Source of the DNA: Nocardioides albertanoniae
GTDB lineage: Bacteria; Actinomycetota; Actinomycetes; Propionibacteriales; Nocardioidaceae
Assembly: GCF_006716315.1 (NCBI RefSeq)
Contig: NZ_VFOV01000001.1
Span: 4,418,501 to 4,482,500 of the forward strand
DNA: 64,000 bases
Direction: 5' to 3'
A program made the position numbers and the translations under genes. Shown piece after piece: positions 34,636 to 62,970 of this stretch; position 1 is the stretch's first letter; each line of letters starts with the position of its first letter. The notes below the pieces were generated by a model. The model was given only the letters and a program-made list of their open reading frames with translations. It was not told the origin of the DNA and did no database searches.

Positions 34636-36696
34636 TCAGCCGGCGGTTCGAGTCTCCACCGACCGCCGACGGCCGCGAATGGGGCGTACGACGAAGATCC
34701 CGGCGAGGAGCGCGAGCGTGCCGATGAGGCCCAGCACGGCGGTCACCGCGCTCAGCACGAGCTTGGTCTCGACGCCTCGGTCCTCGGCTTCGACGTCGTC
34801 GACGAAAGTCAGCGTCATCTTGACGATGGTGTCCTTGAGCCGCTGGATGAAGCGGGTCATGTCGTCGGCCCAGACCTGCACCGCCGGCGCACCGGTGCCA
34901 TGGGCCTCCAGCGCGGCGGCAGCCTTGGCGACGGATCCGTCGTTGATGACCTGGGCGACGGCGTTCTGGGAGACCACACCGCGGGAGCCGTCGGCGAACG
35001 TGCCGCCCGAGATCTTGTCGAGCGACTTCTGCGACGCCTCCGGGGTGTCGTCGTAGAACGTCCGGGAGTTGATCTGCCAGGACGTACGCGCCTTGCTGAG
35101 CGACTCCAGCGGCTCCTCGTCGATCTGGCCGGTCAGGAGTGCGGGCACCATCACCGCACGCTCGACACCCAACGACTCCGACGCCGACCGGACGTGCTTG
35201 AGGTTGATGATCTGCTTGTAGATCTTCTCGTTGCGGATGTTCGGCATCTCGGAAGCGAAGTCCAACAGGTCGTAGGCGGTGTTGGTGTAGGCGGCCAGTG
35301 CGGCCTGGCTGCTCGCCTTGTCGCCCCGCTCGAGATCGTCTCGATAGGCGTCGATGGCCTGCAGCACCGACGACGTGCGCTCGACCCGGTCACGCAGGCT
35401 CGGGGCCGCGGCGAGATCGACCTTGTCGATGTCCGCGCGCCACGCGTCGATCGAGTCGTCGGTCACCCGTCGATAGGCCTGCTGCACCGCGTCGGGCACC
35501 TGATCGGCACTCATCGCGTCGCGCTCGAAGATCAGGTCCATCCCGAGCTCGTAGCTCTCCGGCATCGCTTCGGCGATGGTCACCGCCGGCTGAGAGACGC
35601 TGCGCTCCTTCAACGCGTCCACGAAGGTCATCCCGCCCAGCACCATCGCGATCACCGCGGGCACCACGAGCGCGCCGAGCACCCGCTTGCGGAGCAGCTT
35701 CTCCTTCGGAGCCGCGTGGGATCGAGGCGTACGCCGCTCCGACTCGCCCGCACCCGCACCCCCGCCCGCCGCAGTCGCCGTCGAGCGGGACGGCAGCGCC
35801 AGCGGGCTCGCCACCGACTGGGCGCCACCCAGCTCCCGACTGCCCGGTCCGCCGGCCGTCAGGGTCACGGCCCCTGGCCTACGGGCGAAGGCGACGACCT
35901 CACCCGCGGTCGGACGCCGTGAGGGGTCCTTGCCCATCATCGACGCCACGAACTCGTCGACGACCGGCGGCACCTTCACGACGTCGTTGACACGCGGCAC
36001 CGGCGCCGTCACGTGCTGGTAGATCATCGAGACCGGCTCGGAGCCCGCGAACGGCGCGCGCCCCGTGAGCAGCTCGAAGAAGACGCAGCCGAGCGCGTAG
36101 ATGTCGCTGGGCGGGCCGACCACGTTGTCGGCGGCCTGCTCGGGCGAGATGTAGGGCAGGCTGCCCATCACGTGGCGCGTCGAGGTGAGCCGCTCGGCTT
36201 CGTGGCTGGCCAGCTGCGCGATGCCGAAGTCGAGCACCCGGATCCGGCCGTCGCCGTCGTAGACGAGGTTGGAGGGCTTGATGTCGCGGTGGATGATCCC
36301 CGAGGAGTGCACCGCAGTGAGCGTGCGCGCGACCTGGAGGATGGCCTCGTAGGCCTCCTCGACCGAGAACCGTCCCTGCTTCCCGAGCCGTTCGGCCAGG
36401 GTCGGTCCGGGCAGCAGCTCCATGACCAGGTAGACGATGCTGCTGAACTCGGTCTTCTCCACGCCGACGTCGTGCACCTGCACCGTGCCCGGGTGGCTGG
36501 CCGCGGTCGTCGAGAGCGCCTCGCGCCGGAACCGTTCGGTCACCTTGGGGTCGGCGGAGGTCTCCACGACCTTCACAGCCACCCAGCGTTCGAGCCTGAT
36601 GTCGGCTGCCTGCCAGACCTCGCCCATCCCGCCGCGGCCGATGAGTCGGTGCAGGCGATATCTACCTGCGATCGGAGGGCGCGTGCGCATTCGCAT
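34636..36696 (-). CDS. Receptor-type Ser/Thr protein kinase with an NIT-like extracellular sensor
   Basis: The 686-residue protein has an N-terminal kinase domain (about 10-275) with every key residue: Gly loop GRGGMGEVW (20-28), Lys42 in WVAVKVV, HRDIKPSN (136-143), DFG (156-158) and SPE. A Ser/Ala/Pro linker leads to a membrane span (338-360). The outside part (360-645) is all-helical and resembles nitrate/nitrite-sensing NIT domains: ERDAMSADQV, DSIDAWRADID and LGVERAVMVPALLTG. A second span (646-668) and a short basic tail follow. NIT domains are usually on histidine kinases or cyclases, so this fusion is notable. It lies 76 bp downstream of a pseudokinase paralogue. Confidence 0.85.
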   Translation of the reverse strand: MRMRTRPPIAGRYRLHRLIGRGGMGEVWQAADIRLERWVAVKVVETSADPKVTERFRREALSTTAASHPGTVQVHDVGVEKTEFSSIVYLVMELLPGPTLAERLGKQGRFSVEEAYEAILQVARTLTAVHSSGIIHRDIKPSNLVYDGDGRIRVLDFGIAQLASHEAERLTSTRHVMGSLPYISPEQAADNVVGPPSDIYALGCVFFELLTGRAPFAGSEPVSMIYQHVTAPVPRVNDVVKVPPVVDEFVASMMGKDPSRRPTAGEVVAFARRPGAVTLTAGGPGSRELGGAQSVASPLALPSRSTATAAGGGAGAGESERRTPRSHAAPKEKLLRKRVLGALVVPAVIAMVLGGMTFVDALKERSVSQPAVTIAEAMPESYELGMDLIFERDAMSADQVPDAVQQAYRRVTDDSIDAWRADIDKVDLAAAPSLRDRVERTSSVLQAIDAYRDDLERGDKASSQAALAAYTNTAYDLLDFASEMPNIRNEKIYKQIINLKHVRSASESLGVERAVMVPALLTGQIDEEPLESLSKARTSWQINSRTFYDDTPEASQKSLDKISGGTFADGSRGVVSQNAVAQVINDGSVAKAAAALEAHGTGAPAVQVWADDMTRFIQRLKDTIVKMTLTFVDDVEAEDRGVETKLVLSAVTAVLGLIGTLALLAGIFVVRPIRGRRRSVETRTAG

Positions 36697-36772
36697 ATGT
36701 TGTCTGACTCACACCCTGTGCGTCTCGTTTACGCACCGATGATTTCCATCGATGTCTGGCCGACTCGCCAGA

Positions 36773-38398
36773 TTACGCCTCACCTGATCGCCGTCTCGCC
36801 CGGTAGGTGGCGACGCCGAGAGCGGCGAGGGCCACCAGGCTGACCACGATGAGCACTCGCCAGCCGTTGAGCCGGTTCTGCGCGCTGCTGTGCTTCGCAT
36901 CGATGTCGTCGGCCAGCTTCTGGGCCGCGTCGACGATGACGTTCTTGAGGTCCTGCACGAAGGTGGCGGCGTCGGCGAGCCAGAACTGGTCGACAGCGAC
37001 GCCGGCGGAGCCGTCCTTCAGCTGCCTGACCACGTCGTCGACGTCTCGGGCGTTGAGCACACGGATGACCGCGCGCTGCGAGGTGACGCCGTAGGACCCG
37101 TAGGCGAACGAGCCACCCGAGATGGAGTCGAGCGCCTTGCGGGTCGGCGGCGCCGCGTCCTCGTAGATCGACTCCGAGTGGGTCGTCCACGAGCTCTGGG
37201 CCGCGCTGAGGTCGGAGATCCCCTTCTCGCTGATCTCGCCCTTGCGCAGCGCGGTCGCCATGATCTTGCGCTCGAAGCCGAGCACCTCCGAGACCGGTCC
37301 GATCGACTCCAGATTCCTCGCCTGCCTGGCCAGGTCGTCGTCCTGGAACGTCGGCAGCTCAGCGGCCAGGTCGAAGAGACCGTTGACCGCGTTGGTGTAG
37401 GTCGCCACGTCGGCGTCCGCGTTCGCCCTGTCACCCAGCCGGGCAGCGACGCGGAAGTCGGAGAGACGTTCGAGCGCTGCCGCCGTCCTCTCCGTACGCC
37501 GCCGCAGCCCCGGATCGTCGCTGGCCTCGATCCCGTCGACCTCGCGGGTCCACGCCTTGATGGACTCGTTGGTCACCTTGAGGAACTCCGCGGACACCCG
37601 TCCGCTGCTGCGCAGCGCGTCGCGCTCGACCGAGAGGTTGAAGGCGAGCGCGAAGCTGGTCGGCAGGATCTCGGCCAGCGGCTCGGCGCGGCCCATCGTC
37701 GACGCCGCCTCGCCCGCCCGGAGCGCCCCCCAGCTGCCGAAGACCAGCCCGGTCAGAAGCAGCACCATCAGCGCACCGAGCACGGGCGGCGAGAACCTGC
37801 CGCTGCGCCAGGTGCGCGCGGACGGCGCGACGATCCTCTTCGGCGGCGCGTCGACCCCGCTCTCGAGCACCGCCAGCACCTCCTCGGCCTTCGGGCGTTT
37901 GACCGGCTCGTCGGCGAGCATCGCGGTGACGAGGCCGTCGATCTGGCCCGGCACCGTCACGAGCGAGCCGATGCGTTCGGGGCTTCGCCCGGCGTACGGC
38001 GGACGACCGACGAGCAGCTCGAAGAACACCGCACCCAGCGCGTAGATGTCGCTGGCCGTGCCCGGCCGCTGGCGTTCGATCCGCTCGGGCGCCAGGTAGG
38101 GCAGGCTCTCCCCCGCTCGCGGGGCCGGTGCACTGATGAACACGACCCGACCGTCAGGCCCGAAGCCGATCGTGGCCGGACGTACGTCTCCGTGCACGTG
38201 CCCGCTGGCATGACCGGCGGTGAGGATGCGGGCCAGCTGGGCCACGATGTCGGAGGCCTCGTCAGGCAGGACCCGGCTCTCCTGGGTCAGCCGGGTCGCG
38301 AGGCTGATGCCCTGCGATGGCGCCGGGTCGCCCTGACCGGCCGAGTGGTTCGAGCTCTCCGAACGCGGGCGACCGACGCGTGGGGGACGGATTCGCAT
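36773..38398 (-). CDS. Receptor pseudokinase with NIT-like sensor, paralogue of the adjacent kinase
   Basis: The 541-residue protein matches the next gene over its whole length but has a degraded kinase domain. The N-lobe is missing: no Gly loop and no catalytic Lys. HRD is HGD (69-71) with VRPATI in place of IKPSN, and the DFG site reads FISAPAPR. The C-lobe is kept (YLAPERIERQ, SDIYALGAVFFELLVGRPPY). A membrane span (205-222), a helical NIT-like sensor (ERDALRSSGRV, LGFERKIMATALRKG, ISGGSFAYGSYG) and a second span near 512-532 follow. MRIRPPRVGR mirrors MRMRTRPPIAGR of the kinase, fixing the ATG. A signalling role by partnering the kinase is inferred. Confidence 0.82.
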   Translation of the reverse strand: MRIRPPRVGRPRSESSNHSAGQGDPAPSQGISLATRLTQESRVLPDEASDIVAQLARILTAGHASGHVHGDVRPATIGFGPDGRVVFISAPAPRAGESLPYLAPERIERQRPGTASDIYALGAVFFELLVGRPPYAGRSPERIGSLVTVPGQIDGLVTAMLADEPVKRPKAEEVLAVLESGVDAPPKRIVAPSARTWRSGRFSPPVLGALMVLLLTGLVFGSWGALRAGEAASTMGRAEPLAEILPTSFALAFNLSVERDALRSSGRVSAEFLKVTNESIKAWTREVDGIEASDDPGLRRRTERTAAALERLSDFRVAARLGDRANADADVATYTNAVNGLFDLAAELPTFQDDDLARQARNLESIGPVSEVLGFERKIMATALRKGEISEKGISDLSAAQSSWTTHSESIYEDAAPPTRKALDSISGGSFAYGSYGVTSQRAVIRVLNARDVDDVVRQLKDGSAGVAVDQFWLADAATFVQDLKNVIVDAAQKLADDIDAKHSSAQNRLNGWRVLIVVSLVALAALGVATYRARRRSGEA

Positions 38399-38561
38399 GG
38401 GACCATGGTCCGTGGTCGATGACGCTCCGTCACCGGCAGGTTCAAGATTTAACTTAGTCGTGGCCGAGTGTTCAACTGGACGCTGCACACTAGGGCGGCT
38501 CCGAAATCGTCGAGCCCCGCTCGACCCGGACGTTCCAGGCAGAGCGGGGATCTCGTCACCG

Positions 38562-39608
38562 CTACCGCACCTGAGCGGTGCGCCGCCCCAGGTAGGCGAG
38601 GCAGGCGACGGAGAGCGCGACACCCCACAGCGGCCAGAGCATCTCGGGAGCCCACGCGGCCCAGTCGGCATTGGTGCCGGGCACGGTCCAGAGGTCGTCC
38701 GCGACGGCCATCCGCCAGAAGGACAGCCCCGCGGAGGTCACGGCTGCGGCGACCAGGAACCCGGGCACCAGAGCCATCGCCACCGGCACCGAACGGCCTC
38801 CGATGCCGGGCACCCAGCGCCAGAACACCTCGCCCCAGCGGGCCACCAGGCCCCAGGTGAGGACGCATCCGGCGACGGCGGAGAGCGCCAGCCCGAGCCC
38901 TGCCCAGCGACCCTCACCGAGCTCGTCCAGCATCTCGGGCCGGATCCCGAACGGCACGTCGATCGCCCAGGCCATCCGGGTGACGGCATAGAACATCGGG
39001 ATGATGATCGCGACCGTGACAGCTGGGCGCCCCCAGCGCGCCCAGCGGCTCCAGTCGAGCCGACCGTGCTGCTCCGAACGCTGGAGCACGCGGATGCCGG
39101 AGCCCACGATCGCCAGCCCACCCACGACGTGGGCGAGCGCCTTGCCCGAGCCGAGCACCAGCTCCCAGTTGATGTGGCCCGCGGCCGGGCCGACATCGAT
39201 CAGCGCCATCAGCGTCTGCGGCAGATACCCGAGGAACGACAGCGCGCGCACGTCGGAGATGACCAGAGCCACCACGAGCCCGACGCCGATCAGCAGCCAC
39301 CCCAGCCACCGGTGCGCACCTGGGCGGTCGCCGCGCTCGGGTGCACCTCTCGATCTGACGGCGAACGCCCCGGCGACCAGGGTGACGAGCGCGGCCGAGG
39401 CGATCAGCGCCGACATCTGGCCACCGCTGAGGCCACCGAGCGCCGAGGCGGCCTCGGGCACCCACGGGTCGGGCGTGCGGCCGATGAGAGCCAGACCGGT
39501 CAGGGCGCCGAAGGCGAGCGACCAGGCGCCGGCCACCCATGGCGCCGACCGCAGCACGGCAGAACCCCGCCACGTACGTTCGTTCGCGTGCATCGTCACG
39601 GTGCTCAT
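38562..39608 (-). CDS. Multi-span membrane protein, function unknown
   Basis: This 348-residue protein has about eight hydrophobic spans and no recognised domain. The C-terminal part has FWRWVPGIGGRSVPVAMALVP, which also appears in a degraded copy at 50738-51079. It overlaps the DUF2867 stop by one base (TGATG) and closes a four-gene operon with the histidine kinase and response regulator. A target or partner of that two-component system is the natural inference. Confidence 0.72.
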   Translation of the reverse strand: MSTVTMHANERTWRGSAVLRSAPWVAGAWSLAFGALTGLALIGRTPDPWVPEAASALGGLSGGQMSALIASAALVTLVAGAFAVRSRGAPERGDRPGAHRWLGWLLIGVGLVVALVISDVRALSFLGYLPQTLMALIDVGPAAGHINWELVLGSGKALAHVVGGLAIVGSGIRVLQRSEQHGRLDWSRWARWGRPAVTVAIIIPMFYAVTRMAWAIDVPFGIRPEMLDELGEGRWAGLGLALSAVAGCVLTWGLVARWGEVFWRWVPGIGGRSVPVAMALVPGFLVAAAVTSAGLSFWRMAVADDLWTVPGTNADWAAWAPEMLWPLWGVALSVACLAYLGRRTAQVR

Positions 39609-52702: not shown

Positions 52703-53998
52703 CTAGGGGCGGTCTTCGCTGATGAACTGGCGGACCGGTTCGCGCCAGTCGCCGTACTCCACCGGGACCACGAACTCGCCGTAGATCAGGTCATCCATGT
52801 TGGAGGCTGACACTCGATACGTGCAGAGGATCTCCGATGGCGGATCGTTCTCATCTCCGACAAGCACAACCAACGCCACCTCGCGTGGTTCAGTCTCGAA
52901 AACCTCGTGCGGCCGGAGTACTCGCACGTCGATCGTCAACACCGCTGGCCTCGCCTGCTTGACCCGGATCTCACGGTCTGCATCGCTGCTCGCTGACGAC
53001 CGCCATACCTGCGCCATTTCCGCATCGGACGGCATCACCGGCAGAGGCTGGGGCTCAGCGGTCTTCCACGGGATCGGTGTTTCTGGGAACAGGTTCGGAT
53101 CGTCGTCACTACACCAGCCCGCAGTGATGTTGCCGTCGAACTTCACCTCGATCTGGACCTCTTGCAGGTACGTCTTCATCTTGTTGCAGACTTCGATCTG
53201 GATCCCTGGACTAATGGCAGCTGCGATCGCCACCAGACCTTTGGCCGGCTGAATCCGGGCATTGCGCTCCCAGAGATCGACCCCTGTTGCGAGAATGCGG
53301 CGAGGCGTGGGAAACGCCTTGTCGTGTTGTCGCATCTGCCGTGCGCGGCGAACAATGGCCTCATCAAGCACGTCTAGGTCGACTCCAACCGCCTCCACGC
53401 GACCAACGACAGCGACCGCGACTCCACCAGCTTTCGATGCCTGAGCCATCTGCTTGAGACGCAGGAACATCGCGTGCTTCTCGTTGCCAGTGGCCGCCCG
53501 AGTTTCACCATCGACCCGCAGATATATCTCTCCGTTTCGGAGCCTCGTGGCAGACTCATCCTCACCATCAGCTCGGCACGCCCAAATGTCACCCGTTGGC
53601 GGCCACACGTCGACGACGATCACGTCCCGACTACCCTCGAGCGGAATCCGATCGAATCCCCACCGCGGGCCGTCCGTGCCAATCCACGCAGTCACATCGT
53701 GGTGGAGGTCCTTGGCTTCGAAGCCCTCAATGCCCGTCGCCGCCCCATGCGCCGCTCCGAGAACCATCAAGGCGTGGCCCTCGAAGTAGCCATCAGCAAC
53801 GGCGGGCTCGCGGTTCGCTGCTCCCAGAATGAACTTGGCGACCTTCCCTCGCCCAGCCTTGCGGGTGAGATCCACGTCGGACTTGACCTCCAAGAAGTGG
53901 CGCTCAATCCGGTCGTCTGTGCTCATGACGTACTCAAGAAGCGCCAGCCTCTCGATCTCGCCGCTGGGGCGTTGGCGCAGGTCGAACTCGGTCACCAT
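52703..53998 (-). CDS. AlbA_2/Schlafen-like N-terminal domain protein
   Basis: This 431-residue protein (ATG 53998; an ATG 6 codons earlier is possible) has an N-terminal domain resembling AlbA_2 (divergent AAA-4): ERHFLEVKSDVDL at 32-44, a central hydrophobic strand HALMVLGAAHG, and IYLRVDGETRAA at 158-169. In Schlafen-type proteins the Glu-Lys pair and the R-V-G-E block contribute to nucleic-acid binding. The C-terminal half is beta-rich and unrecognised. AlbA_2 proteins are frequent in defence islands. Divergent from the membrane-protein/DUF262 pair. Confidence 0.65.
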   Translation of the reverse strand: MVTEFDLRQRPSGEIERLALLEYVMSTDDRIERHFLEVKSDVDLTRKAGRGKVAKFILGAANREPAVADGYFEGHALMVLGAAHGAATGIEGFEAKDLHHDVTAWIGTDGPRWGFDRIPLEGSRDVIVVDVWPPTGDIWACRADGEDESATRLRNGEIYLRVDGETRAATGNEKHAMFLRLKQMAQASKAGGVAVAVVGRVEAVGVDLDVLDEAIVRRARQMRQHDKAFPTPRRILATGVDLWERNARIQPAKGLVAIAAAISPGIQIEVCNKMKTYLQEVQIEVKFDGNITAGWCSDDDPNLFPETPIPWKTAEPQPLPVMPSDAEMAQVWRSSASSDADREIRVKQARPAVLTIDVRVLRPHEVFETEPREVALVVLVGDENDPPSEILCTYRVSASNMDDLIYGEFVVPVEYGDWREPVRQFISEDRP

Positions 53999-54281
53999 GG
54001 ACCTATTCGACCCCATCGGTCGCGCCGCCGCAGGCTAAACCTTGGTAGTGGTGCCGAGCTGTCACAGGTTTCGGGCTCGAGGCGGTGGAGTCGACCTCGC
54101 AAGGGGTGCAGCGGCAGCCACCGGTCATCAGGACGTGCGCGGCGGCCGACGCTCGACGGGAGCGCGTTGTGGCGGCGCGTTCCACGCGAACGGCTGCGGG
54201 AGATCCAGTTGTGCTGCGTCTCACGAGATGCATGCACTATCTTGCTGGGCAGGAAGCGCTACACGAGAGGGTCGGCAAGCG

Positions 54282-55016
54282 ATGGGTAGGGGTTCACCAC
54301 TCGAGTCGGCGCGAGCTCTCAAGACGGCGCTTGGTGCCTGGAGCTTGGCCTCCTTACTGCTCTCCGTTGTCCTCGTCGGGGTCGACTATTTCGTTACGGA
54401 CAAATTCTGGAGCCTTGCGCTCTCCTCGCTAGCGTCTGCCGGGTTTTCGATCGTGGGCGCCCTTCTCATTACTGAGCTCATCCTAAAGCCGCTGTATGTT
54501 CGCGACGTTCTCCAGACCGCCAACCTTAGTTCCGAGGTTCACCACGCAGGCATCAAAGGCGTGCGTGGCTTGTCCGAGGTTGACTGGCGTCAAGCCTGCG
54601 TCGGCGAGTTGCCAATATCGGTTGCCGTTGGCAACGAACACTTGCTTAGGGGTGGCCCTTGGCCGGCCATTCTTGAGGCTAGTCGGGCAAAAAAGAGGAC
54701 GGTCAAGATACATGTGTTGGACGGACCTTCCGCTGAGCCGCTAGCACAAAGCCTCGAGAGTCAGTGGCGGTCTAATGGGTGCAAGGAGAAGGGATCTGAG
54801 ATCGTCGTAGTTCCACACGATCGAATCACACAAGGGTTGATACTCCAATGCGGAGAATGGATCGTTGCCTCGCTTGCCGATGATCCAGGTAACGACACCC
54901 CCCTTTTTATTGTATTCTCGTCTGACTCACGAGAATCTGTGGTCACCTCGCTGAAGCGTGGAATTGACCGCCTTGATGAATCGGATTCAGTGCCACTTGC
55001 CGGAGCGGGAGCATAG
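54282..55016 (+). CDS. Two-span membrane protein with a PLD-like cytosolic domain (unknown)
   Basis: This 244-residue protein has two membrane helices (about residues 18-39 and 45-66) and a cytosolic domain of about 170 residues. That domain has alternating strands and helices (RTVKIHVLDGPS, EIVVVPHDRI, LILQCGEWIVASL) that recall phospholipase D-like folds, but there is no HxK motif, so catalysis is doubtful. ATG 54282 is chosen because the conserved-looking part starts there and earlier codons are high-GC noise. The stop is 2 bp before the DUF262 ATG, so the pair is an operon. The region is visibly richer in A/T than its surroundings. Confidence 0.65.
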   Translation: MGRGSPLESARALKTALGAWSLASLLLSVVLVGVDYFVTDKFWSLALSSLASAGFSIVGALLITELILKPLYVRDVLQTANLSSEVHHAGIKGVRGLSEVDWRQACVGELPISVAVGNEHLLRGGPWPAILEASRAKKRTVKIHVLDGPSAEPLAQSLESQWRSNGCKEKGSEIVVVPHDRITQGLILQCGEWIVASLADDPGNDTPLFIVFSSDSRESVVTSLKRGIDRLDESDSVPLAGAGA

Positions 55017-55018
55017 AC

Positions 55019-56599
55019 ATGGCGAAAAGGACGATCATCGATGACCCCGACCTGCTAGAGATCCTCGAAGGCATTTCAAAGGGCGAAGTGGCTCTGCCGA
55101 ACTTCCAGCGCGATTTCGACTGGTCCGACAGCGATATTCGGGCATTACTAGCAACAGTCTTGAATGGTTGGCCCATGGGGAGTCTGTTACTCGTTGAGGG
55201 AAACCCGGAGAACCAGAACTTCTATTCGCCTCGGCGCTTTGAGTTTGCGCCAGAACTTGTCGGCGTTCCAAATATGATCGTATTAGACGGACAACAACGC
55301 CTTACTTCGCTGTATGCCGCGCTGTATGACCAGAGCGATTCGGTACATGCCGTGAGCCTTGGCCAGAAATTACAGTGGGGCGACATCGACTCAGTGGATG
55401 GCGCGCTTAGAACATTCAAGCGATCAGTATGGGATCGGCACTACGCAACTCCGAAAGAGCAGTTTGAGGGCGGGTACCTCCCTGTTAGCGCCTTGCGCTC
55501 ATCTACTCGATTCTTTGATTGGCGAGACGCTGCGGCGCCAGACGAAGCTGTCACAAAGCAGCTCACAGAGATGTATCGAGAACACCTCTCTGGCCTCTAC
55601 AGATATCGGATGCCAGCACTCTACATCGCTAAGGGCACTCACCCTGCCGCGGTCGCTAGGATCTTTGAACGGGTCAACAAGACCGGACAGCAGCTTGGCG
55701 CATTCGACTTGATGGTCGCCAAGTCATTCACGCCCGAATTCAACTTGCGAGTCAAATGGGAAGAGGCCCGCAACTTTCATCCAGAATTGGGCCGATTCTA
55801 TGGCGATGATGGTTTAGCCCCACTGCAGGTGATCACACTGCGGGCGCACGAGGACGTGAGGGCGTCCGCAGTGTTGACGCTGACACCGTCCATCATTCAT
55901 GACCTCTGGGATTCAGCGGTCGAGGCCTTAGCAAAAGCCGTTCGCTTCTCATTCCATGAACTTGGCGTCCTAAAGCAAGAATTTCTTCCATATAACAGCC
56001 TCATGGTAGTTCTGGCCGCTCATATCTGGTCACGCGAAATCGACCATGCCGAAGTACTTAAGATGAAGCGGTGGTTCTGGACGTCCTGCCTAACGTCGCG
56101 CTACGCGGTTGGATCTAACACCGTCGCACAGGCGGACTACAAACAGTTGAGCCATCAAGGCGATGCATTCGCAGGGAGTAGCATCAATCTGGATTGGACA
56201 GTCTTCCGCGACGCGACGAAGCAGTCTGCTGGCGCAATACACCGCGCCTGGCTGTGCACCCTGGGCGCGTCAGTGGAGCAGTCACGCCAGGATGCAGACG
56301 TCGTACTCCCCACGCCCCGTAGTCTGATTCCCAGAGGATCAAGCGACAAGTCCACCGTAGCGCCGCCACATCTGCTCACCCTGAGTTTTGTCTTGGCGTC
56401 TGAGCACTCCGAGGACCTTGCGCGACAGTTTCTTTCCCGCGACGAGATAGAAGCCGCGTCGGGAGACCTCGCCACGTCGCTAGACGAGTTCCTTCGGGCG
56501 CGTTTGAATAGGGCCGCCGAGTTTATCGCCTCGGAGTGTCAACTTCCGGTGAGAGTGGTTTCTGACCTGGAAGACGAACTCACCGGTCGAGGCGACTAG
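55019..56599 (+). CDS. DUF262 (GmrS/ParB-like) protein
   Basis: The 526-residue protein carries the DUF262 hallmarks: LPNFQRDFDW (26-35), VLDGQQRLTSLY (88-99) and FERVNKTGQQLG (216-227). These build the nucleotide- and nucleic-acid-binding core seen in the GmrSD type IV restriction enzyme and other phage-defence proteins. No C-terminal DUF1524 HNH nuclease motif is visible, so a partner or another nuclease may be needed. It is paired with a membrane protein 2 bp upstream. Codon use is less GC-biased than the core, a sign of recent transfer. Confidence 0.85.
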   Translation: MAKRTIIDDPDLLEILEGISKGEVALPNFQRDFDWSDSDIRALLATVLNGWPMGSLLLVEGNPENQNFYSPRRFEFAPELVGVPNMIVLDGQQRLTSLYAALYDQSDSVHAVSLGQKLQWGDIDSVDGALRTFKRSVWDRHYATPKEQFEGGYLPVSALRSSTRFFDWRDAAAPDEAVTKQLTEMYREHLSGLYRYRMPALYIAKGTHPAAVARIFERVNKTGQQLGAFDLMVAKSFTPEFNLRVKWEEARNFHPELGRFYGDDGLAPLQVITLRAHEDVRASAVLTLTPSIIHDLWDSAVEALAKAVRFSFHELGVLKQEFLPYNSLMVVLAAHIWSREIDHAEVLKMKRWFWTSCLTSRYAVGSNTVAQADYKQLSHQGDAFAGSSINLDWTVFRDATKQSAGAIHRAWLCTLGASVEQSRQDADVVLPTPRSLIPRGSSDKSTVAPPHLLTLSFVLASEHSEDLARQFLSRDEIEAASGDLATSLDEFLRARLNRAAEFIASECQLPVRVVSDLEDELTGRGD

Positions 56600-56614
56600 G
56601 TTTGGCCTAGTTCG

Positions 56615-57349
56615 ATGTCGATAGGTCAACTGCTCCCCGTAGTGGTCGGCGCCCTGATCGCGCTCGCCGGCTCCCTCATGGTTCAACTCCTCCTCGTCCC
56701 GCACGTCGAGACCCGACGGCGACATGACGAGCGTTGGGAGCAAGCCGTCCTGGACCTTGGCCATGCGCTCGTCTTCGACGAGAGCCCGTCCGGCTTGCGG
56801 CATGCGGTCAAGGCCATCTACGAAGCCGTGCACCCACCGGGGGGTGCGACTCTGAGCCGTGAGCAGATCGCAGCGCGACTCACGACCGAACAGATCAGCG
56901 ATCTAAAGGAGGCCATCCAGGCTTTCGTCGAGTCTCTGACGCGTTCCCGGTGGCTTGCCGATCGAGTCATATTTCGCCCATCAGCTGAACGGCGCATGCA
57001 GCAGGCGCGCCTTTATCTTTTCAAACACTTCGAGCATTCCTATCTGCTCCTCGGCATTGCCCAGCACGCTCTCGCAGAGAGAATCGACGCGAGATTGCAG
57101 ATTTCACTCCCCGACTACGCCGAGGGCACCGGTTCCCTGCAGGACATCCTTGCCCCAGGGCGCTCGTACTCGGTGAACGAGGTGAACGAGGCCTACGCAT
57201 CGCTGGTCGAGAACCGCGCACGCCTTGTCACAGCACTCGAGGACATGATCAACACAGAACCTCCACGCAGAGTTGGCCCCATCCGCAAGATTTCGCACCG
57301 TGCGTCCAGGTCCCTCCGCACGAGGCGCCAAGAACCGGGCAGCACCTAG
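56615..57349 (+). CDS. Membrane-anchored hypothetical protein
   Basis: This 244-residue protein has one N-terminal span (residues 5-28, PVVVGALIALAGSLMVQLLL) followed by ETRRRHDERWEQAVLDLGHAL and a long helical body. Proteins of this plan are common in actinobacterial accessory regions; no function is known to me. It begins 15 bp after the DUF262 stop and may belong to the same transcript. Confidence 0.55.
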   Translation: MSIGQLLPVVVGALIALAGSLMVQLLLVPHVETRRRHDERWEQAVLDLGHALVFDESPSGLRHAVKAIYEAVHPPGGATLSREQIAARLTTEQISDLKEAIQAFVESLTRSRWLADRVIFRPSAERRMQQARLYLFKHFEHSYLLLGIAQHALAERIDARLQISLPDYAEGTGSLQDILAPGRSYSVNEVNEAYASLVENRARLVTALEDMINTEPPRRVGPIRKISHRASRSLRTRRQEPGST

Positions 57350-57395
57350 TCTCGCCCGTGCAGGCCGCTCGAACATGAGGTTGGGGGCCGGACTA

Positions 57396-57866
57396 CTACT
57401 GCGGTTCGTCGACCAGTAGGTCGCGGGCGTTAGCATCTATCTTCCCTTGGAATCGTCCGTGCCCACAGAGCGCGTAAGGGATGCACGCCGTCGGGTCAAC
57501 GTCCTGGGCCGTGGCCGCCTTCCGAACATCGTCCGGGCTAACCGGGTAGATCACCGTCTCGCCTGGTTCCAGGCGCTTAGGCAGGCGGTCGATGCGGACG
57601 GCAGGCTCCGTAAGAATCATCACGCCGCCCTTCGGGATCTCAAAGCCCAGAGCAGTCACGGTTGTTGCGGTCCGTCCTTTGTTGGTGGCCTCGATTGCGA
57701 CAAACCATTGATCGCTGGTCAGGAAGTCCGCAAACACGAATGAGGTCGCCTTGACTTGCAAGCGCGCACCGGTATGCCTCCACGAGTAGACATTCCAAAA
57801 CACATTGCCCACCGCCACCAGGGCCGCGAAACTGCCGATGATCAGGCTGAGAGTTGTCTTGTCCAC
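57396..57866 (-). CDS. Membrane-anchored hypothetical protein with beta-sandwich domain
   Basis: This 156-residue protein starts at GTG (57866) with GGGG upstream. A span (6-24, LSLIIGSFAALVAVGNVFW) is followed by a beta-rich domain (FVAIEATNKGRTATTVTALGFEIPKGG) like small Ig-type folds found in phage-region proteins. No function is assigned. It is convergent with the previous gene. Confidence 0.55.
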   Translation of the reverse strand: MDKTTLSLIIGSFAALVAVGNVFWNVYSWRHTGARLQVKATSFVFADFLTSDQWFVAIEATNKGRTATTVTALGFEIPKGGVMILTEPAVRIDRLPKRLEPGETVIYPVSPDDVRKAATAQDVDPTACIPYALCGHGRFQGKIDANARDLLVDEPQ

Positions 57867-57954
57867 GCCCCAAGCCTCGCACTAGCCCTCGAGCAACTCC
57901 CACCAAACCGAAAAGCCGTACCACAATTGCCCGGCTTGCTGACAGCATCGCAGA

Positions 57955-58800
57955 GTGACCGATGACAGCCTTGGCCCGGATCCGGAGACAGCCCGCCGTC
58001 TCGAGGAGTTGGCCCTTAAGCGATGGCCCGAGGTTGTCGCTGGTATCGATGCCGCGGTGGCGCGCTTTGAGGACCAGGCGCTCACCGCGCGATTCGGTAC
58101 GCCGCTGGCAGCCGATGACCGCAAGGCCAACCCGTTCCACACCAGCCATGTGATCCAGATGCTGCTCAGCGCCGGCATTGACAACCTCAACGGCATTCGA
58201 CATCTCATCTGGGGACGCCCGCCTGAGAGCTCCGACCGGCCGGTACTCCATCAGGCGACGCACTTCGTGCTTGCACGAGCGGCGATCGAAGACTTCGCGA
58301 CTGCGCTCTGGATCCTCGGCCCTTCATCGAGACCCGTCAGGGTCGAACGGACACTGCGGTGGCACGTACAGAACATCCAAGACCGGAGCCGGGCCATCGA
58401 GGTGCTGGGTGTCACGCAGCATTCCGGGGAGGACAGACTGAAGCGACTGGAGGAGATCGCCGAGCGGTCGCTTGGTGCCGTTCCTCCAAAATTTCGCGGC
58501 CGCGGCTTCACCGCCACAGAGGTGGTGAAGTATGCCGACGCGACCAACCCTGAAGGAGGCAACCAAGAACTCTCGACAGAGTTCCTTTGGCGTCTTTGTT
58601 CTGGATTCACCCACGGCCGGTTCTGGTCCAGTCTCTTGTTCCTAGAGCAAGAACACCTCGCGACTGACGACCCTGACGTGATCTCAGTCCGGATGACCAG
58701 TGACCTCACACGCGCGTTGTGGCCGACCAAGGAAGCCATGCACCTGTTGGAGCGACTCCTTAAATTGCACAACCAGCGGAACACCCCACACTTTCCCTGA
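57955..58800 (+). CDS. Helical hypothetical protein
   Basis: This 281-residue, mostly helical protein starts at GTG 57955. I do not recognise a family. Conserved-looking features are HFVLARAAIEDFATALWILGP and RLCSGFTHGRFW, a pattern seen in actinobacterial accessory proteins of unknown role. It is divergent from the previous gene with an 88-bp gap. Confidence 0.55.
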   Translation: MTDDSLGPDPETARRLEELALKRWPEVVAGIDAAVARFEDQALTARFGTPLAADDRKANPFHTSHVIQMLLSAGIDNLNGIRHLIWGRPPESSDRPVLHQATHFVLARAAIEDFATALWILGPSSRPVRVERTLRWHVQNIQDRSRAIEVLGVTQHSGEDRLKRLEEIAERSLGAVPPKFRGRGFTATEVVKYADATNPEGGNQELSTEFLWRLCSGFTHGRFWSSLLFLEQEHLATDDPDVISVRMTSDLTRALWPTKEAMHLLERLLKLHNQRNTPHFP

Positions 58801-58921
58801 GCTTCGCCTCGCCCTCTAGTCAACTCAGTCGGCCCGACTGTCACGATCAAGGCACTTGGGGCTGAAGAAGGCCCGCCTCGTGATCATCAGCGAGGGCGCC
58901 CATGCCCGCTTGGCGGCAGAG

Positions 58922-59155
58922 CTATGAGGACGGCGGACGGCTGTCGGCTTCTCGGATGTGCGCGGCATTGACCCACGACTGCGTAACGTGCGCTTTCAGA
59001 CCGTGGCCGGTGGAGTACGTCGACGCGTACATGACCCACCCCTCCCACTCGCCCTGGTGGCTCTTCTGCCACATCAGCAAGATGCCGGGGCTCGAGTGGT
59101 ATCCCCACGCGCCAGTCACGTCAACCCAGACGTGTATAGGTGTCGCCTCGCGCAT
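58922..59155 (-). CDS. Small Trp-rich hypothetical protein
   Basis: This 77-residue protein has IHVWVDVTGAWGYHSSPGILLMWQ and WEGWVMYAS, a Trp-rich beta pattern that resembles small proteins carried next to actinobacterial integrases and replication genes. The opposite-strand frame is longer but has no coding character. It is convergent to nothing and sits between the helical protein and the integrase. Confidence 0.55.
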   Translation of the reverse strand: MREATPIHVWVDVTGAWGYHSSPGILLMWQKSHQGEWEGWVMYASTYSTGHGLKAHVTQSWVNAAHIREADSRPPSS

Positions 59156-59184
59156 GACACCATGTTAGAACGCTTGTTCGATCA

Positions 59185-60051
59185 ATGCCCCGTTCCCTCG
59201 CAGCCCTTCAGATCGGCAGCGTCACCGAACGCGAGGTCTCGCGCGCACTGGTGTCACTGCTCCGCAGCGGGCTCGCCGAGAAGTCAGTCAAGCGATACCG
59301 CGCCTCCCTGTCGTCCTTCTTCGCCTGGGCAGTGCGCGAGCGCATGGTCCAGCACAACCCTGTAACCCCAACCAGGGTGCCCAAGGCGAGCGAGGTCGAG
59401 ACGGAAATGCAGCCGTTCAGCGAGACCGAGTTGGAAACTCTCGTCGCAGACGCCGCCCAGCTCGCCTCCCGCGATTCGGTGAGCCTGATCCGCGCCACGG
59501 ACAGGGCCCGCGACCTGGCCCGGCTCGCGGACATTCTGTTGGTCGCGGGTTGGACCGGGCTTCGGTGGTCTGAACTGCGCGAAGTGAGAGTTAGCGACAT
59601 CGCGCTGCAGCCGATTCCGGGCATCTACGTGCGGCGCGCCGCCCCTGAAGGAGGCGAGGCCAAACGAACCAAGTCGGGCAAGTCGAGGTTCGTCCCGCTC
59701 GCCGATCGGGTACTCCCAACCGTCATGGGGCTCATGGCCGGGCGCACTAGCCGAGACCTGGTCTTCGTAACCGCCACTGGGCATCGACTGCACGCGAGCG
59801 CCGTCAAGCGTGCCGTCGATTGGGAACTCATCTCGCATGGCCGGCGGATCCACGATCTGCGGCACACCGCTGCCTGTCTTTGGCTCGCAAAGGGTGTCCC
59901 CGCAACGACGGTGCAGGCATGGATGGGGCATGCGTCGATCGCCACGACGAACATCTACTTGCACCACCTCGGAACCGTCGCCGACGAGGCTGGATTGGCC
60001 CGCCTGAACGGCGCGGGGGGAATCCGGGGGGAATCTTCGCCGGAACGGTAA
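59185..60051 (+). CDS. Tyrosine integrase, probably 5'-truncated
   Basis: The 288-residue frame has the catalytic domain of a tyrosine recombinase: first Arg in TGLRWSELR, Lys in TKSGKSR, HDLRHTAA, WMGHASIATTNIYLHH with the Tyr nucleophile. The core-binding domain starts abruptly at SLAALQIGSVTEREVSRALVSLLRSGL. Related actinobacterial integrases have another hundred or so N-terminal residues (arm-binding part), which I cannot find upstream. The gene ends about 65 bp from a tRNA-Ala fragment, the usual place for an integrase. Confidence 0.8.
   Translation: MPRSLAALQIGSVTEREVSRALVSLLRSGLAEKSVKRYRASLSSFFAWAVRERMVQHNPVTPTRVPKASEVETEMQPFSETELETLVADAAQLASRDSVSLIRATDRARDLARLADILLVAGWTGLRWSELREVRVSDIALQPIPGIYVRRAAPEGGEAKRTKSGKSRFVPLADRVLPTVMGLMAGRTSRDLVFVTATGHRLHASAVKRAVDWELISHGRRIHDLRHTAACLWLAKGVPATTVQAWMGHASIATTNIYLHHLGTVADEAGLARLNGAGGIRGESSPER
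60014..60033. repeat. 20-bp direct repeat, right copy
   Basis: Identical to 52481-52500 (two G6 runs around AATCC). Here it lies inside the end of the integrase gene, about 100 bp from the right tRNA fragment. Confidence 0.6.
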
Positions 60052-60063
60052 GACTAAACACAA

Positions 60064-60150
60064 AGAACCCCGTCTGATCACTTGCGTTTCCGCAGATCAG
60101 ACGGGGTTCTGGCTTGTGGAGCTGAGGGGATTCGAACCCCTGGCCTTCTC
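60064..60150 (-). other. Right tRNA-Ala 3' fragment plus terminator (candidate attachment site)
   Basis: A 35-base tRNA 3' piece on the minus strand (60150-60116) is identical to 52400-52366 but has lost the CCA end. A perfect 16-bp terminator stem (60064-60079 with 60095-60110) follows. It marks the right end of the integrated segment or an old insertion of the same type. No intact tRNA is attached. Confidence 0.78.
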
Positions 60151-60188
60151 TTGGTGCCTGGCGCCCTTCGCCGGGTGCCGCATCTCTC

Positions 60189-60219
60189 GTGGTTTCTCGA
60201 CCAGTTTCTGAGAAACCAC
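60189..60219. repeat. 10-bp inverted repeat
   Basis: GTGGTTTCTC and GAGAAACCAC flank an 11-base spacer, 39 bp from the tRNA fragment. It could be a recombinase core or a terminator for the abiE genes; a further 8-bp hairpin CGTCATCG-TTTT-CGATGACG is at 60241-60260. Confidence 0.45.
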
Positions 60220-60334
60220 CGTTTGACCTGGGCGAACATCCGTCATCGTTTTCGATGACGAGGTCGACATTACCTCATCTCCTCGCCCGATCTCGGGGTC
60301 TCTCGACAGGGTTTTCGCGGAGTATTCGCGGAGT

Positions 60335-61240
60335 TCAGGACCACGTCCGGGCCTCCGCCCGCCACTGCGCAGCGCCGGGGGTGCCGGCACTCAGCACCGG
60401 GTCGGCGAACCGGACCGCCGTCTCCACGACTTCCTCGAATGTCGCGGGGAGATGCTCGCCATCGGCGCCGAGCCCGCGTCGATACGCGACGTACGCTGAG
60501 GCCCGGACCTTCACGAGGTCACCGATCGCCTCAGACAGCGATCTGACGACGACCCCTCGAAAGTTCATGGTGGCCGCCACTGCCGCGCTCACCTCGGCAC
60601 CGTCGAGGTCATGGGTCGTGACCAGGGTGTAGATGTCGGCCCAGTCCCGCACTCTTGTGCTCGCCGGCCCGAGGTCGATCGCGGTCGAGATCTTCTCCGC
60701 CAGCACGGTCGCGATCGGATACCCCAATATCCGCACCGGCGGTGCGCCGGGTCGCAGCGCAGGCAGCTCGACGACTGATGGCTCCGGTGTCACTGGATCT
60801 CCGAAGTTGATGTCCAGCTTGAGCTTCAGCTGCGCCGTGCCCAGCGTCGCGTCCATGGTCACGCGGACACCGGAGTAGAGCGCGTCGTCTCGGATCATCG
60901 CCGTCTTGACGGTCTCGGTCAGGTAAACCACTCCGTCGTCCGGGTCGGCCAGACCTGCGATCTCGACCACCCGGGCCGCGACGGCGCTCTCGTCGGCCGG
61001 CATGTTCCGAGCCAAAGCGTCCGCATCGGTGGTCGGGCGCCGACTCCCGAAGCTCGCCAGGAGCATCCCGCCCTTGAGGACGAAGTCACCGGCGTATGGC
61101 GATGCGCTCATCCGGGCCAGCCATCGCTCCACGACGTACATCGTCAACAGGTCCTGGGTACGCCTGCGCTCCCGCCGAGCTCGGTTCTGCAGATCCAAGT
61201 AGGCGCGCCCGGCCGCCGACTCTCGCGTCGGCCGACTCAT
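60335..61240 (-). CDS. abiEii: AbiEii-type nucleotidyltransferase toxin
   Basis: This 301-residue toxin of the type IV AbiE system has the motifs of the family: KGGMLLASFGSRRPTTDAD (56-74), LKLDINFGDPVTP, and EKISTAIDLG...RVRDWADIYTL. AbiEii toxins transfer nucleotides (in mycobacteria to tRNA acceptor ends) and stop growth, giving abortive infection. The ATG overlaps the antitoxin stop by four bases. The protein looks intact. Confidence 0.9.
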   Translation of the reverse strand: MSRPTRESAAGRAYLDLQNRARRERRRTQDLLTMYVVERWLARMSASPYAGDFVLKGGMLLASFGSRRPTTDADALARNMPADESAVAARVVEIAGLADPDDGVVYLTETVKTAMIRDDALYSGVRVTMDATLGTAQLKLKLDINFGDPVTPEPSVVELPALRPGAPPVRILGYPIATVLAEKISTAIDLGPASTRVRDWADIYTLVTTHDLDGAEVSAAVAATMNFRGVVVRSLSEAIGDLVKVRASAYVAYRRGLGADGEHLPATFEEVVETAVRFADPVLSAGTPGAAQWRAEARTWS

Positions 61241-61824
61241 CGTGCCCCCGCGATGTCGAGTGCCAACCGCACCGGCCCGACGACCCCGAGGGCGTTGGCG
61301 TACTCCAGCACCCGCCCCGGCTTCGCTCCTGGCGATTCCAAGTACCTGTTGAGCACCGTGTGCGCCACCGGCTCGCCGAGTCGGTGCCGCAGGCGCATCA
61401 GGTCCACCACTGTCCGAGCGGGATCGTAGATTCGCGTGAACTCGTCCGGCGCGACCTCCAATTGCGAGAGTCCGAGCTCGAAGGTCTCAGCATCGAACCG
61501 AAACACCGTCGTCGGCGGGAAGGTGATGCGGGCCAGGTTTCGCCCGGACGCGATCGCGATCTGGACCGCAGGTTCCATCTCGTCACTGAGACCGTGGGCC
61601 ACCGCAGCGCTCACGCAGCACACGATCGCGTGCGGAGCCCTCATGCCGACGGCCAACAGGTCAGGGAACGAGGGCTCCGGCGCTGCCGCGTTACGAAACA
61701 CACCTCGCGAGAGCTCGATGACATCGCCATCGTCCCGCCATCGATACAGGTCCCGCGGATGCGCCCCTGCTCGCAGGGCCGCTCGTGTCGTGAACGTCAC
61801 TGGAAGTGACTCCAATCCCACCAT
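61237..61824 (-). CDS. abiEi: AbiEi-type antitoxin
   Basis: This 195-residue antitoxin (from ATG 61824) has an N-terminal winged helix, FTTRAALRAGAHPRDLYRW and VIELSRGVFRN, and a C-terminal domain with TFPPTTVFRF and DPARTVVDLMRLRHRLG. AbiEi blocks the toxin without contact in the type IV scheme and represses its own promoter by binding paired inverted repeats; a matching repeat lies on its start. A start at 61881 would include the repeat in the protein. It is coupled to abiEii. Confidence 0.88.
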   Translation of the reverse strand: MVGLESLPVTFTTRAALRAGAHPRDLYRWRDDGDVIELSRGVFRNAAAPEPSFPDLLAVGMRAPHAIVCCVSAAVAHGLSDEMEPAVQIAIASGRNLARITFPPTTVFRFDAETFELGLSQLEVAPDEFTRIYDPARTVVDLMRLRHRLGEPVAHTVLNRYLESPGAKPGRVLEYANALGVVGPVRLALDIAGAR

Positions 61825-61875
61825 GGATAAAAACCATACACTCTCGCAGGGAGAGTGAGTGGTTTTTATCCATGG
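61821..61875. promoter_or_regulatory. 55-bp inverted-repeat operator at the abiE start
   Basis: Two 25-bp arms (61821-61845 and 61851-61875) pair at 23 of 25 positions around GCAGG. The left arm contains the abiEi ATG. TATGGT 8 bases before that ATG could be the -10 of a leaderless transcript. AbiEi of Streptococcus binds two inverted repeats of about 23 bp in its promoter, so this is very probably the operator. Confidence 0.75.
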
Positions 61876-61884
61876 TTGCATGGC

Positions 61885-62970
61885 TCAATGCAAGACACCC
61901 GCCAGCATTGACGTTTCGCAAAGCGACCACATCGTGCGCGTTACGAACGCGAACCGGTCACAGCCCAGGTGGCGGCTGGAAGTGGCGTGCAGCGCTTGGG
62001 CTGGTCGGATGTAGCGGTCGATGAGGATGTCGATGCGTCGGTGCCTGGCCTGGGCGGCGATCCGGTCGATGCCGACGCCGGCCATGGCGGCGGTGGTGGC
62101 GTGTCCTGCGCGCAGCGAGTGAGCCGTGATGCGGCCGGTCAGCCCGGCGGCCTCGGCGTAGCGCTTGACGACACTCGTGACGACGTTGCCGGAGATCGGT
62201 TGGAGCGGCGGAGCGCCGTTGCGGAAGCTGGTGAAGACCGGGCCCTGCCCGGGTCCTCGATGGGCGAGCCAGGCGTCGAGGGCCGTGATCGGGTCGGTGT
62301 CGCGGTGGCGGCCCGGTGCGATCCCGACGACCTGCCCGCGAGCATCGGGGTCGGTCTTCGAGCGGCGCAGGCGGAGCAACAGTCCGCCGGGCTTGGGTTC
62401 GAGGTCGGCGAGTGTGAGGTTCGCGAGCTCGGAGCGGCGCAGCGCGCCGGCGAAGCCGAGCAGGATGACCGCGGCGTCTCGCGCACCAACCGGGCTGTCA
62501 CGGTCGATGGCGGCGAGGAGCTGGCCGATCTCTTCGGGGCCGACTGGATGGGCGGGTCGGCGTGGCGCGGTCCCAAGGATGCGGTGCAGGCCGCGGCGTA
62601 CCTGGCGAACGGCTACGGTCGCGGTGGGATCGGTCAGGTCGCGACATCGGTGGTGGTAGCCGATCGCGGAGCAAGCCAGGTCGACAGTCGCGGCCGAGAG
62701 CCCGTCAGCGGCTGTCTCGGCGAGGTAGGCGCACACCGCGACCGGGTCGGCGCCCCGACGGCCGGCGCCGGGACCCTCCTCGCCGAGCGGAGCGATGCCG
62801 CGGTGCGTGCACCAGCGTTCCCATCGGCGCCAGGCGGAGGCGTAGACGGTGCGGGTGGTCGCAGCGTGGGTGGCGGTGATCGCGGCGGCGATCCGCTCGA
62901 CGTCCTCCGCGGTGAGCGGCGTACCGCGGTGAGGATAGGAGTCGATGAGCACTGGAGACGTTGAGTTCAT
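61885..62970 (-). CDS. Tyrosine recombinase/integrase
   Basis: This 361-residue recombinase has a complete N-terminal SAM-like domain (TTRTVYASAWRRWERWCTHRG) and catalytic domain with GALRRSEL (Arg), LRRSKTDPD (Lys), TAHSLRAGHATT (His-x-x-Arg), QARHRR and DRYIRP (Tyr). It resembles phage-type integrases that act in trans in actinobacterial elements. It starts 61 bp to the right of the abiE operator and is likely the mobilising enzyme of that module. Confidence 0.85.
   Translation of the reverse strand: MNSTSPVLIDSYPHRGTPLTAEDVERIAAAITATHAATTRTVYASAWRRWERWCTHRGIAPLGEEGPGAGRRGADPVAVCAYLAETAADGLSAATVDLACSAIGYHHRCRDLTDPTATVAVRQVRRGLHRILGTAPRRPAHPVGPEEIGQLLAAIDRDSPVGARDAAVILLGFAGALRRSELANLTLADLEPKPGGLLLRLRRSKTDPDARGQVVGIAPGRHRDTDPITALDAWLAHRGPGQGPVFTSFRNGAPPLQPISGNVVTSVVKRYAEAAGLTGRITAHSLRAGHATTAAMAGVGIDRIAAQARHRRIDILIDRYIRPAQALHATSSRHLGCDRFAFVTRTMWSLCETSMLAGVLH

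Follow-up and report, generated by a model that had tools for sequence, protein, structure and literature searches.

What does a receptor pseudokinase do when it is encoded directly beside an active-looking receptor kinase that carries the same type of sensor? This question is raised by two genes in a window of 64,000 nucleotides from Nocardioides albertanoniae (contig NZ_VFOV01000001.1), the whole stretch of DNA that was analysed. A preliminary description had reported adjacent same-strand genes of one plan, and both open reading frames were found at that position and on that strand. The product of gene A starts with a Hanks-type Ser/Thr kinase, followed by a membrane span, a NIT domain and a second membrane span. 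The product of gene B follows the same plan, but its kinase part is reduced to a C-lobe remnant. The features are as follows.

34636..36696, minus strand: gene A, 686 aa, a receptor Ser/Thr kinase carrying a NIT sensor and intact active-site residues
34672..34767, minus strand: second membrane span of A, residues 644-675 (hydropathy)
34768..35610, minus strand: between-span region of A, residues 363-643, with NIT match at 405-622 (PF08376, 3.1e-18)
35611..35697, minus strand: first membrane span of A, residues 334-362 (hydropathy)
35893..36660, minus strand: kinase domain of A, residues 13-268 (PF00069, 8.6e-49, and residue counts)
36697..36772, minus strand: B-A intergenic gap, 76 nt (coordinates and alignment)
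36714..36736, minus strand: conserved element GTGCGT-N7-ACGCAC-NGGG, a short distance upstream of the start of A
36773..38398, minus strand: gene B, 541 aa, a receptor pseudokinase carrying a NIT sensor, upstream of A
36797..36874, minus strand: second membrane span of B, residues 509-534 (hydropathy)
36914..37579, minus strand: NIT match of B, residues 274-495 (PF08376, 1.3e-14)
37715..37798, minus strand: first membrane span of B, residues 201-228 (hydropathy)
37874..38308, minus strand: kinase C-lobe remnant of B, residues 31-175, HGD at 69-71

A longer frame for B (36773-38671) is an upstream extension of the open reading frame starting at 38398. Of the 15 B sequences in which the kinase part is present, 13 share the start at 38398 (MRIRPP), with small changes; the annotated start lies later in the remaining two.

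The profile search gave A a Pkinase match of 8.6e-49 over residues 13-268, with K42, D138, N143 and D156 at catalytic positions; its activation loop contains T171 and T173. The VAIK Lys, HRD Asp, catalytic Asn and DFG Asp, among them the K42, D138 and D156 named in the preliminary description, are present in 33/34 A sequences, the remaining one having an alignment gap there, and in 28/28 sequences of A2, a third family member that is a more distant paralogue with an intact active site. Gene A thus has the residues expected of a Hanks-type Ser/Thr kinase, and phosphotransfer activity is predicted. As a separate observation, a role as a defence kinase was rejected, since PADLOC PD-T4-6 and similar matches were confined to the kinase part and look generic.

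The Pkinase match of B (1.2e-10, 41.6 bits, cut-off 31.7) covers only profile positions 83-258 of 263. The N-lobe is missing, just as had been proposed. The HRD site reads HGD, also as described, but its catalytic Asp (D71) is kept and not lost. What has been lost is the HRD Arg, the catalytic-loop Lys (Arg in 15/15) and the Asn (Thr in 14, Ile in one). The suggestion that DFG had been rewritten to FISAPAPR did not hold: the alignment puts DFG in a deletion in all B sequences, and the equivalents of A T171 and T173 also fall in deletions in all of them. The VAIK Lys and DFG are absent and the HRD Asp is kept in all 15 B sequences having the kinase-remnant region, that of N. albertanoniae included. 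About 12 further residues are missing from the five B sequences inspected, near what we take to be alpha-G. The remaining core is uniform in 15/15, comprising HGD, the APE Glu and the residues matching A D198 and R261. Judged by its residues, B is classed as a pseudokinase, with kinase homology and the loss of at least one of the VAIK Lys, HRD Asp and DFG Asp. The dimer interface positions of PknB presumably have their equivalents in R12, L35 and D76 of A, which are kept in 23/23, 33/33 and 33/33 sequences having the position; B lacks the N-lobe that carries them.

Both sensor regions were searched with the PF08376 profile, and the NIT sensors suspected in the two proteins were borne out, with scores well over the curated cut-off of 24.9 bits (A 67.5, B 55.5 and A2 45.4 bits). 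It has been proposed that two arginines of NIT domains make up the ligand site (PMC7400543, PMC7496416). A fold of two four-helix bundles characterises NIT domains, and the two arginines lie where the bundles meet. The sensor of A has R392, before the Pfam match, and R513, both present in 34/34 A sequences, and that of B has R259, just before the match, and R377 within it, both present in all 16 B sequences that cover them; the two are also invariant in A2 (28/28). All four residues of A and B align with arginines of histidine-kinase NITs, and their match to those of NasR comes from the motif and the literature, NasR itself lying outside the alignment. The Gly of the G-x-x-R motif of nitrate sensors is present only at the second Arg site of A and B, and some NIT domains are reported not to bind nitrate or nitrite (PMC13343842). 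The only narG matches in the N. albertanoniae genome were below the cut-off, so the respiration genes give nitrate as the ligand no support; a tie to nitrate respiration was rejected on this basis, assimilatory genes falling outside this test. A PDB sequence search with the NIT alignment found no NIT structure.

A and B have a common origin: they align over B residues 30-540 with 33% identity and an E value of 2e-85, which holds for that single comparison. The earlier view that catalysis was lost and the sensor kept after this common origin is upheld. In the NIT tree, which omitted L124 and L125 as rows duplicating other loci, the kinase-NIT proteins split from 10 other NITs with 100% support, whereas B as the direct sister of A received only 60%. 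On 151 columns and with a long B branch, B has no firm place relative to A, A2 and the kinase L139.

Among 215 genomes of the genus, B was present in nine, each with A adjoining B and with A2 present. This co-occurrence survey agrees with a paired system, but the carriers probably form one clade, so the nine would represent one event and weigh little as independent evidence, and B-A linkage may persist without joint function. A phylum-wide kinase-led search returned mostly ordinary kinases and was excluded from the NIT distribution.

Could B be a kinase-NIT duplicate that has become a pseudogene and is slowly decaying? Catalysis has been lost, and the dN/dS of B exceeds that of A, being roughly three times the value for the A kinase. 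Against this, the pooled dN/dS was 0.33 in both the B remnant (codon bootstrap 0.23-0.43) and the B sensor (0.26-0.42), while shifted-frame controls gave 1.2-1.9, which shows purifying selection on both parts; eight B sequences, that of N. albertanoniae included, contain no stop codons; and the lesions are shared by 15/15. Decay was rejected on this conservation and on the dN/dS with its controls, and we regard it as very improbable. The absence of B from close relatives, or a catalytic B in them, would have marked it as mere decay; we looked for both and found neither.

A different reading is that B works independently of A, as a sensor or scaffold for A2 or for nearby two-component or membrane proteins, its adjacency to A being a relic of tandem duplication. 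MAG-46 contains a second, uninterrupted B (L046) without an adjacent A, A lying elsewhere in the assembly (L049); A2 occurs in the nine B-carrying genomes; and genes for a membrane protein, DUF2867, a response regulator and a histidine kinase lie upstream of B in several carriers. However, in YR527 and albus these upstream genes are more than 5 kb from B while B and A are still together, and the B-A spacing is fixed, the gap being 76 nt in 7/7 pairs measured. We consider an independent role improbable.

The conserved element in this gap was aligned in seven B-A pairs, one with a changed arm base, and it precedes the A start in eight of nine loci scanned, the ninth being the lone B copy; several genomes are shared between the two sets. 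The copy at 36714..36736 is the sole exact match in the N. albertanoniae genome. Because the element precedes A, A may be under control of its own. The promoter scan found no promoter-like site, and the terminator scan gave two terminator-like sites against 0.7 expected and was not relied on. The RNA fold of the gap (z -2.6) left the repeat arms unpaired with each other, so no claim is made from it. This element, the lone B in MAG-46, the probable single clade of carriers, the higher dN/dS of B, the sub-cut-off narG matches and the partial G-x-x-R motif count against the receptor module proposed below, the last two bearing on nitrate as its ligand.

N-lobe dimerisation is reported to activate PknB and PknD (PMC3601408). 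In the mechanism that we propose, A spans the membrane as a Ser/Thr kinase and would detect a small ligand with its outer NIT domain; candidates are nitrate, nitrite or some other compound bound by the actinobacterial branch of NIT domains. B derives from a kinase-NIT ancestor common with A, and has lost the parts needed to bind ATP, to catalyse phosphotransfer and to make the known contacts between kinases, while the sensor and membrane spans were retained. It would pair with A through the NIT/membrane part, and such a pair would lack the N-lobe dimer by which kinases of A's type are activated. The most likely role of B would then be that of a decoy co-receptor setting the activation threshold of A, and ligand would shift the balance between A-A and A-B. 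That B tunes A is plausible from adjacency, the shared sensor and analogy, and B may serve as an inbuilt brake or as a co-receptor; we infer the A-B pairing, the sign of its effect, the ligand and B-A co-transcription. That the two genes form a receptor module in which B is a non-catalytic decoy lowering A activation seems to us to fall just short of an even chance. The more specific proposal of a dedicated NIT hetero-receptor, in which an active kinase and a paralogous pseudokinase with a C-lobe core exchange between A-A and A-B dimers to set activation, is put forward tentatively, as we lean somewhat against it.

The opposite sign is also conceivable, B being an activating or ligand-widening co-receptor, with A-B pairs and perhaps larger arrays needed for signalling; a second NIT specificity would come from B, whose C-lobe remnant would dock a substrate or adaptor. 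Selection acts on the B sensor, in which both arginines are retained, the uniformity of the remnant core in 15/15 suggests a binding role, and the non-catalytic CvnF8 activates the actinobacterial kinase CvnA8 (PMC13343842). Nevertheless, B has lost the N-lobe and activation loop and with them the known surfaces for contact between kinases, and we hold an activating role to be unlikely.

If the dedicated hetero-receptor is correct, it would be a bacterial NIT-sensing Hanks-type receptor kinase with a partner pared to the kinase C-lobe core. Because the candidate active partner adjoins B, with a like sensor type, in named species, tuning of an active paralogue by a receptor pseudokinase would be directly testable. 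The preliminary description had considered a Ser/Thr kinase with a NIT sensor to be uncharacterised. This stands for bacteria, as we found no bacterial NIT-Ser/Thr kinase receptor, with or without a pseudokinase partner, in the literature searched; it does not stand in general, as algal fusions are in print (PMC9481584). According to that source, pelagophyte NIT-protein kinase fusions are known from genome sequence, two Pelagomonas calceolata genes combining NIT with a Ser/Thr/Tyr-type kinase domain in one protein. In contrast to A, these proteins are eukaryotic, the two P. calceolata ones are read by their authors as intracellular sensors, and the available portion of the paper mentions no pseudokinase partner (PMC9481584).

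Among solved structures, the kinase domain of A is nearest to PknA (3e-60) and PknB (6e-56), which likewise have the kinase inside, a span and the sensor outside. The sensor of A is NIT and not PASTA, however, and A has a second span after it; NF033483 (PASTA kinase PknB) gave A 301.2 and B 59.3, both under its equivalog cut-off of 450. The nearest other NITs found to A and B are those of actinobacterial NIT-HAMP-HATPase histidine kinases, here called CvnA type without regard to conservon neighbours. These also have the NIT between two spans, but HAMP and HATPase follow the second span, whereas the Hanks-type kinase part of A and B precedes the first, so that in A, a bacterial Ser/Thr kinase joined to a NIT sensor, the domain order is reversed. 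The profile search gave no HATPase match in A or B, which sets both apart from the CvnA type. A comparable way of working is seen in pseudoreceptors such as BAMBI of the TGF-beta family, which lacks a functional kinase and dampens active receptors by associating with them; its likeness to B is only one of proposed function, origin and sensor being unrelated.

MviN/ActPs3 and other bacterial pseudokinase families (PMC12599244) resemble B in having a kinase fold without catalytic residues, and the MviN pseudokinase domain is phosphorylated by PknB (PMC3601408). Many constraints of ActPs3 lie in the N-lobe, which is absent from B; the words NIT and nitrate do not occur in that review (PMC12599244). 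As regards the ActPs1-3, CP1, DYD and DLHK families, each defined by its own sequence constraints, the combination seen in B, HGD without DFG, does not appear among the motifs of Table 1 there. In CvnF8/CvnA8, as proposed for B and A, a non-catalytic partner alters the activity of an actinobacterial sensor kinase, although CvnF8 is a GAF protein and, unlike B, not a paralogue of its kinase, and CvnF8-like accessory genes are described as accompanying CvnA proteins without NIT (PMC13343842). The pseudokinase version of ChrS in Corynebacterium glutamicum is likewise an inactive sensor kinase form with a physiological effect, but it is a histidine kinase (PMC9491836). In animal NIT guanylate cyclases, NIT is reported as the outer sensor of a transmembrane enzyme, as in A, with a cyclase instead of a kinase as the output (PMC7400543, PMC1592074).

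Profile searches and alignment revealed two adjacent genes of similar layout, separated by a gap of 76 nt.

36773-38398, minus strand: B, a pseudokinase with a kinase C-lobe remnant and a NIT sensor (PF08376), upstream of A
34636-36696, minus strand: A, a receptor Ser/Thr kinase with a NIT sensor, downstream of B

A matched Pkinase at residues 13-268 (8.6e-49) and NIT at residues 405-622 (3.1e-18). B matched NIT at residues 274-495 (1.3e-14) and Pkinase at 1.2e-10, the latter confined to positions 83-258 of the 263-position profile. The two proteins were 33% identical across B residues 30-540. In both, the NIT region was flanked by hydrophobic spans, two per protein, and the segments N-terminal to the first span and C-terminal to the second were the more positive, a pattern that fits a kinase part inside and a sensor outside.

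K42, E59, H136-R137-D138, K140, N143, D156-F157-G158 and T171/T173 were kept in 33 of 34 A sequences, the remaining one being a gap throughout, and the same catalytic and activation-loop residues were kept in 28 of 28 sequences of A2, a third, more distant kinase-NIT paralogue. The B set comprised 16 sequences; P0017 had no kinase part, leaving 15, including that of the window, for lesion counts. In contrast to A, all 15 lacked the N-lobe, DFG and activation loop and read H-G-D-x-R, and the catalytic Asn position was occupied by Thr (14 of 15) or Ile (one). Approximately 12 residues near alpha-G were also missing in the five aligned B sequences inspected. The preliminary description of these lesions was thus correct in outline, except that the HRD site, which it gave as HGD, retains the catalytic Asp, and the DFG site, which it gave as FISAPAPR, is deleted, not substituted.

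Besides one partial sequence, the protein search returned 14 more homologues of B (59-74% identity); none had an N-lobe, and all six with an organism name were from Nocardioides. Pooled over all pairs from six species, which are not independent, dN/dS was 0.33 (0.23-0.43) for the B remnant and 0.33 (0.26-0.42) for its NIT region, and in A it was 0.10 (0.06-0.15) for the kinase, 0.12 (0.06-0.18) for the C-lobe, 0.27 (0.21-0.35) for NIT and 0.49 (0.33-0.73) for the linker. An estimate from eight B and six A sequences was consistent with these values. Shifted frames of B, used as a control, contained stops and gave 1.2-1.9; this difference and the uniform lack of an N-lobe make it very unlikely that B is a decaying gene.

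In the genus search (215 genomes, six candidates scored per genome, E 1e-20), B was found in nine genomes as 10 copies; A adjoined B and A2 was present elsewhere in these same nine. One A2 copy found in the genome search (L075, G218:C8:93951-94985) carried an in-frame TAG, a pseudogene or a sequencing error. Among the other 206 genomes, three had NIT matches only, which on inspection of the frames were two histidine kinases and one NIT protein without a kinase. The wider samples, all within the same phylum, gave close NIT matches in 2 of 293 genomes of the order (the present genome and G206), 13 of 296 of the class and 21 of 396 of the phylum (five candidates scored per genome), the last two counts including the present genome. 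Architecture was checked at all 12 non-own class-search loci and at 28 non-own phylum-search loci, some places being common to both; 46 of 76 phylum-search entries (43 non-own) had no locus and lay outside this check. HATPase accompanied NIT at 12 of 12 and 26 of 28 loci, respectively; the two exceptions were a chemoreceptor by inspection (L173) and a cut-short sequence (L176). A Ser/Thr kinase beside NIT was found at none of these checked loci, only at the A locus itself. The protein searches scored the 8000 closest candidates, and all two-domain proteins among the matches listed, which left out 59 of the 179 hits of one search, fell into the A, A2 or B groups.

A tree of NIT domains (328 columns), which included 10 other NITs, set A, A2 and B apart from these at 100% support; A and B grouped together at 60%. 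The genome has 19 Pkinase matches in all; a kinase tree that took in 15 of its other kinases placed B, A, A2 and one of these, L139, apart from the remaining 14 at 96% support. As judged from these two splits, a single kinase-NIT ancestor probably gave rise to three lines, one of which then lost catalysis. A2 (L036 2627-4690) is 45% identical to A, with intact active-site residues.

The neighbours were largely common to the compared loci: peroxidase, MarR, MFS (by eye) and YdjM on one side, and a membrane protein, DUF2867, a response regulator and a histidine kinase on the other. Gaps occurred at contig ends, and MarR and MFS were not found in L049. MAG-46 carries two B copies, one with A (L049 3086-6887) and one without A, adjoining the membrane protein (L046 3864-5501). 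The sequence after the lone copy matches an insertion that separates B from the membrane-protein side genes in YR527 and albus. The two contigs appear to be neighbours flanking this insertion, and the match points to the lone copy as an older tandem copy of B.

The A start is immediately preceded by an inverted repeat, GTGCGT-N7-ACGCAC (window 36714-36736), the only exact match in its genome. It was present in each of the nine genomes that carry the B-A pair in the genus search, had a changed arm base in one further strain and was absent after the lone MAG-46 B; it is possibly a promoter, operator or leader element. Elsewhere, window 52703-62970 has lower GC and may be a mobile element with defence genes: it holds a GmrSD_N gene and an AbiEi/AbiEii toxin-antitoxin pair, along with two phage-integrase ORFs.

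Regarding the sensor, published work predicts NasR E175 and R176 within the nitrate pocket (PMC7496416) and proposes that two interface arginines of NIT domains bind ligand (PMC7400543). Both arginines were invariant in A, A2 and B. G-x-x-R, a motif of nitrate sensors (PMC8199190), was present at the second arginine site in A and B and not in A2, where Ser replaces Gly; it was not at the first site. Since some NIT domains are reported to bind neither nitrate nor nitrite (PMC13343842), these are candidate ligands for A and B. The present genome also encodes a NIT-HAMP-HATPase histidine kinase. Approximately 2.4 kb ahead of that gene lies one for a NIT protein otherwise bare of Pfam domains (the two at L037 4653-5729 and 8104-11532); this protein may be a second NIT paralogue of the sensor-only kind, encoded close to a NIT kinase.

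A keeps R12, L35 and D76, which correspond to interface positions of PknB. Passages of PMC3601408 describe activation of kinases of this type by N-lobe dimerisation and a front-to-front arrangement as the model for activation-loop phosphorylation. As B has neither an N-lobe nor an activation loop, A paired with B would probably not signal. On these grounds we tentatively prefer a decoy role, in which B pairs with A through the sensor and lowers its activation, to a co-receptor that activates A, which seems less likely, and to a separate role for B, apart from A, which appears somewhat less probable again.

A bacterial pairing of NIT with a Ser/Thr kinase was not found in the open-licence literature searched. 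An Azospirillum survey gives the two domains as separate rows (PMC4618731), and a term search of a review of bacterial pseudokinase families (PMC12599244) did not return NIT, nitrate or Nocardioides. The fusion is already visible in databases, as one B homologue is annotated 'nitrate- and nitrite sensing domain-containing protein' with both Pfam domains listed. In eukaryotes, NIT with this kinase fold has already been published: of the three NIT genes described in the genome of the alga Pelagomonas calceolata, two also carry a protein-kinase domain (PMC9481584).
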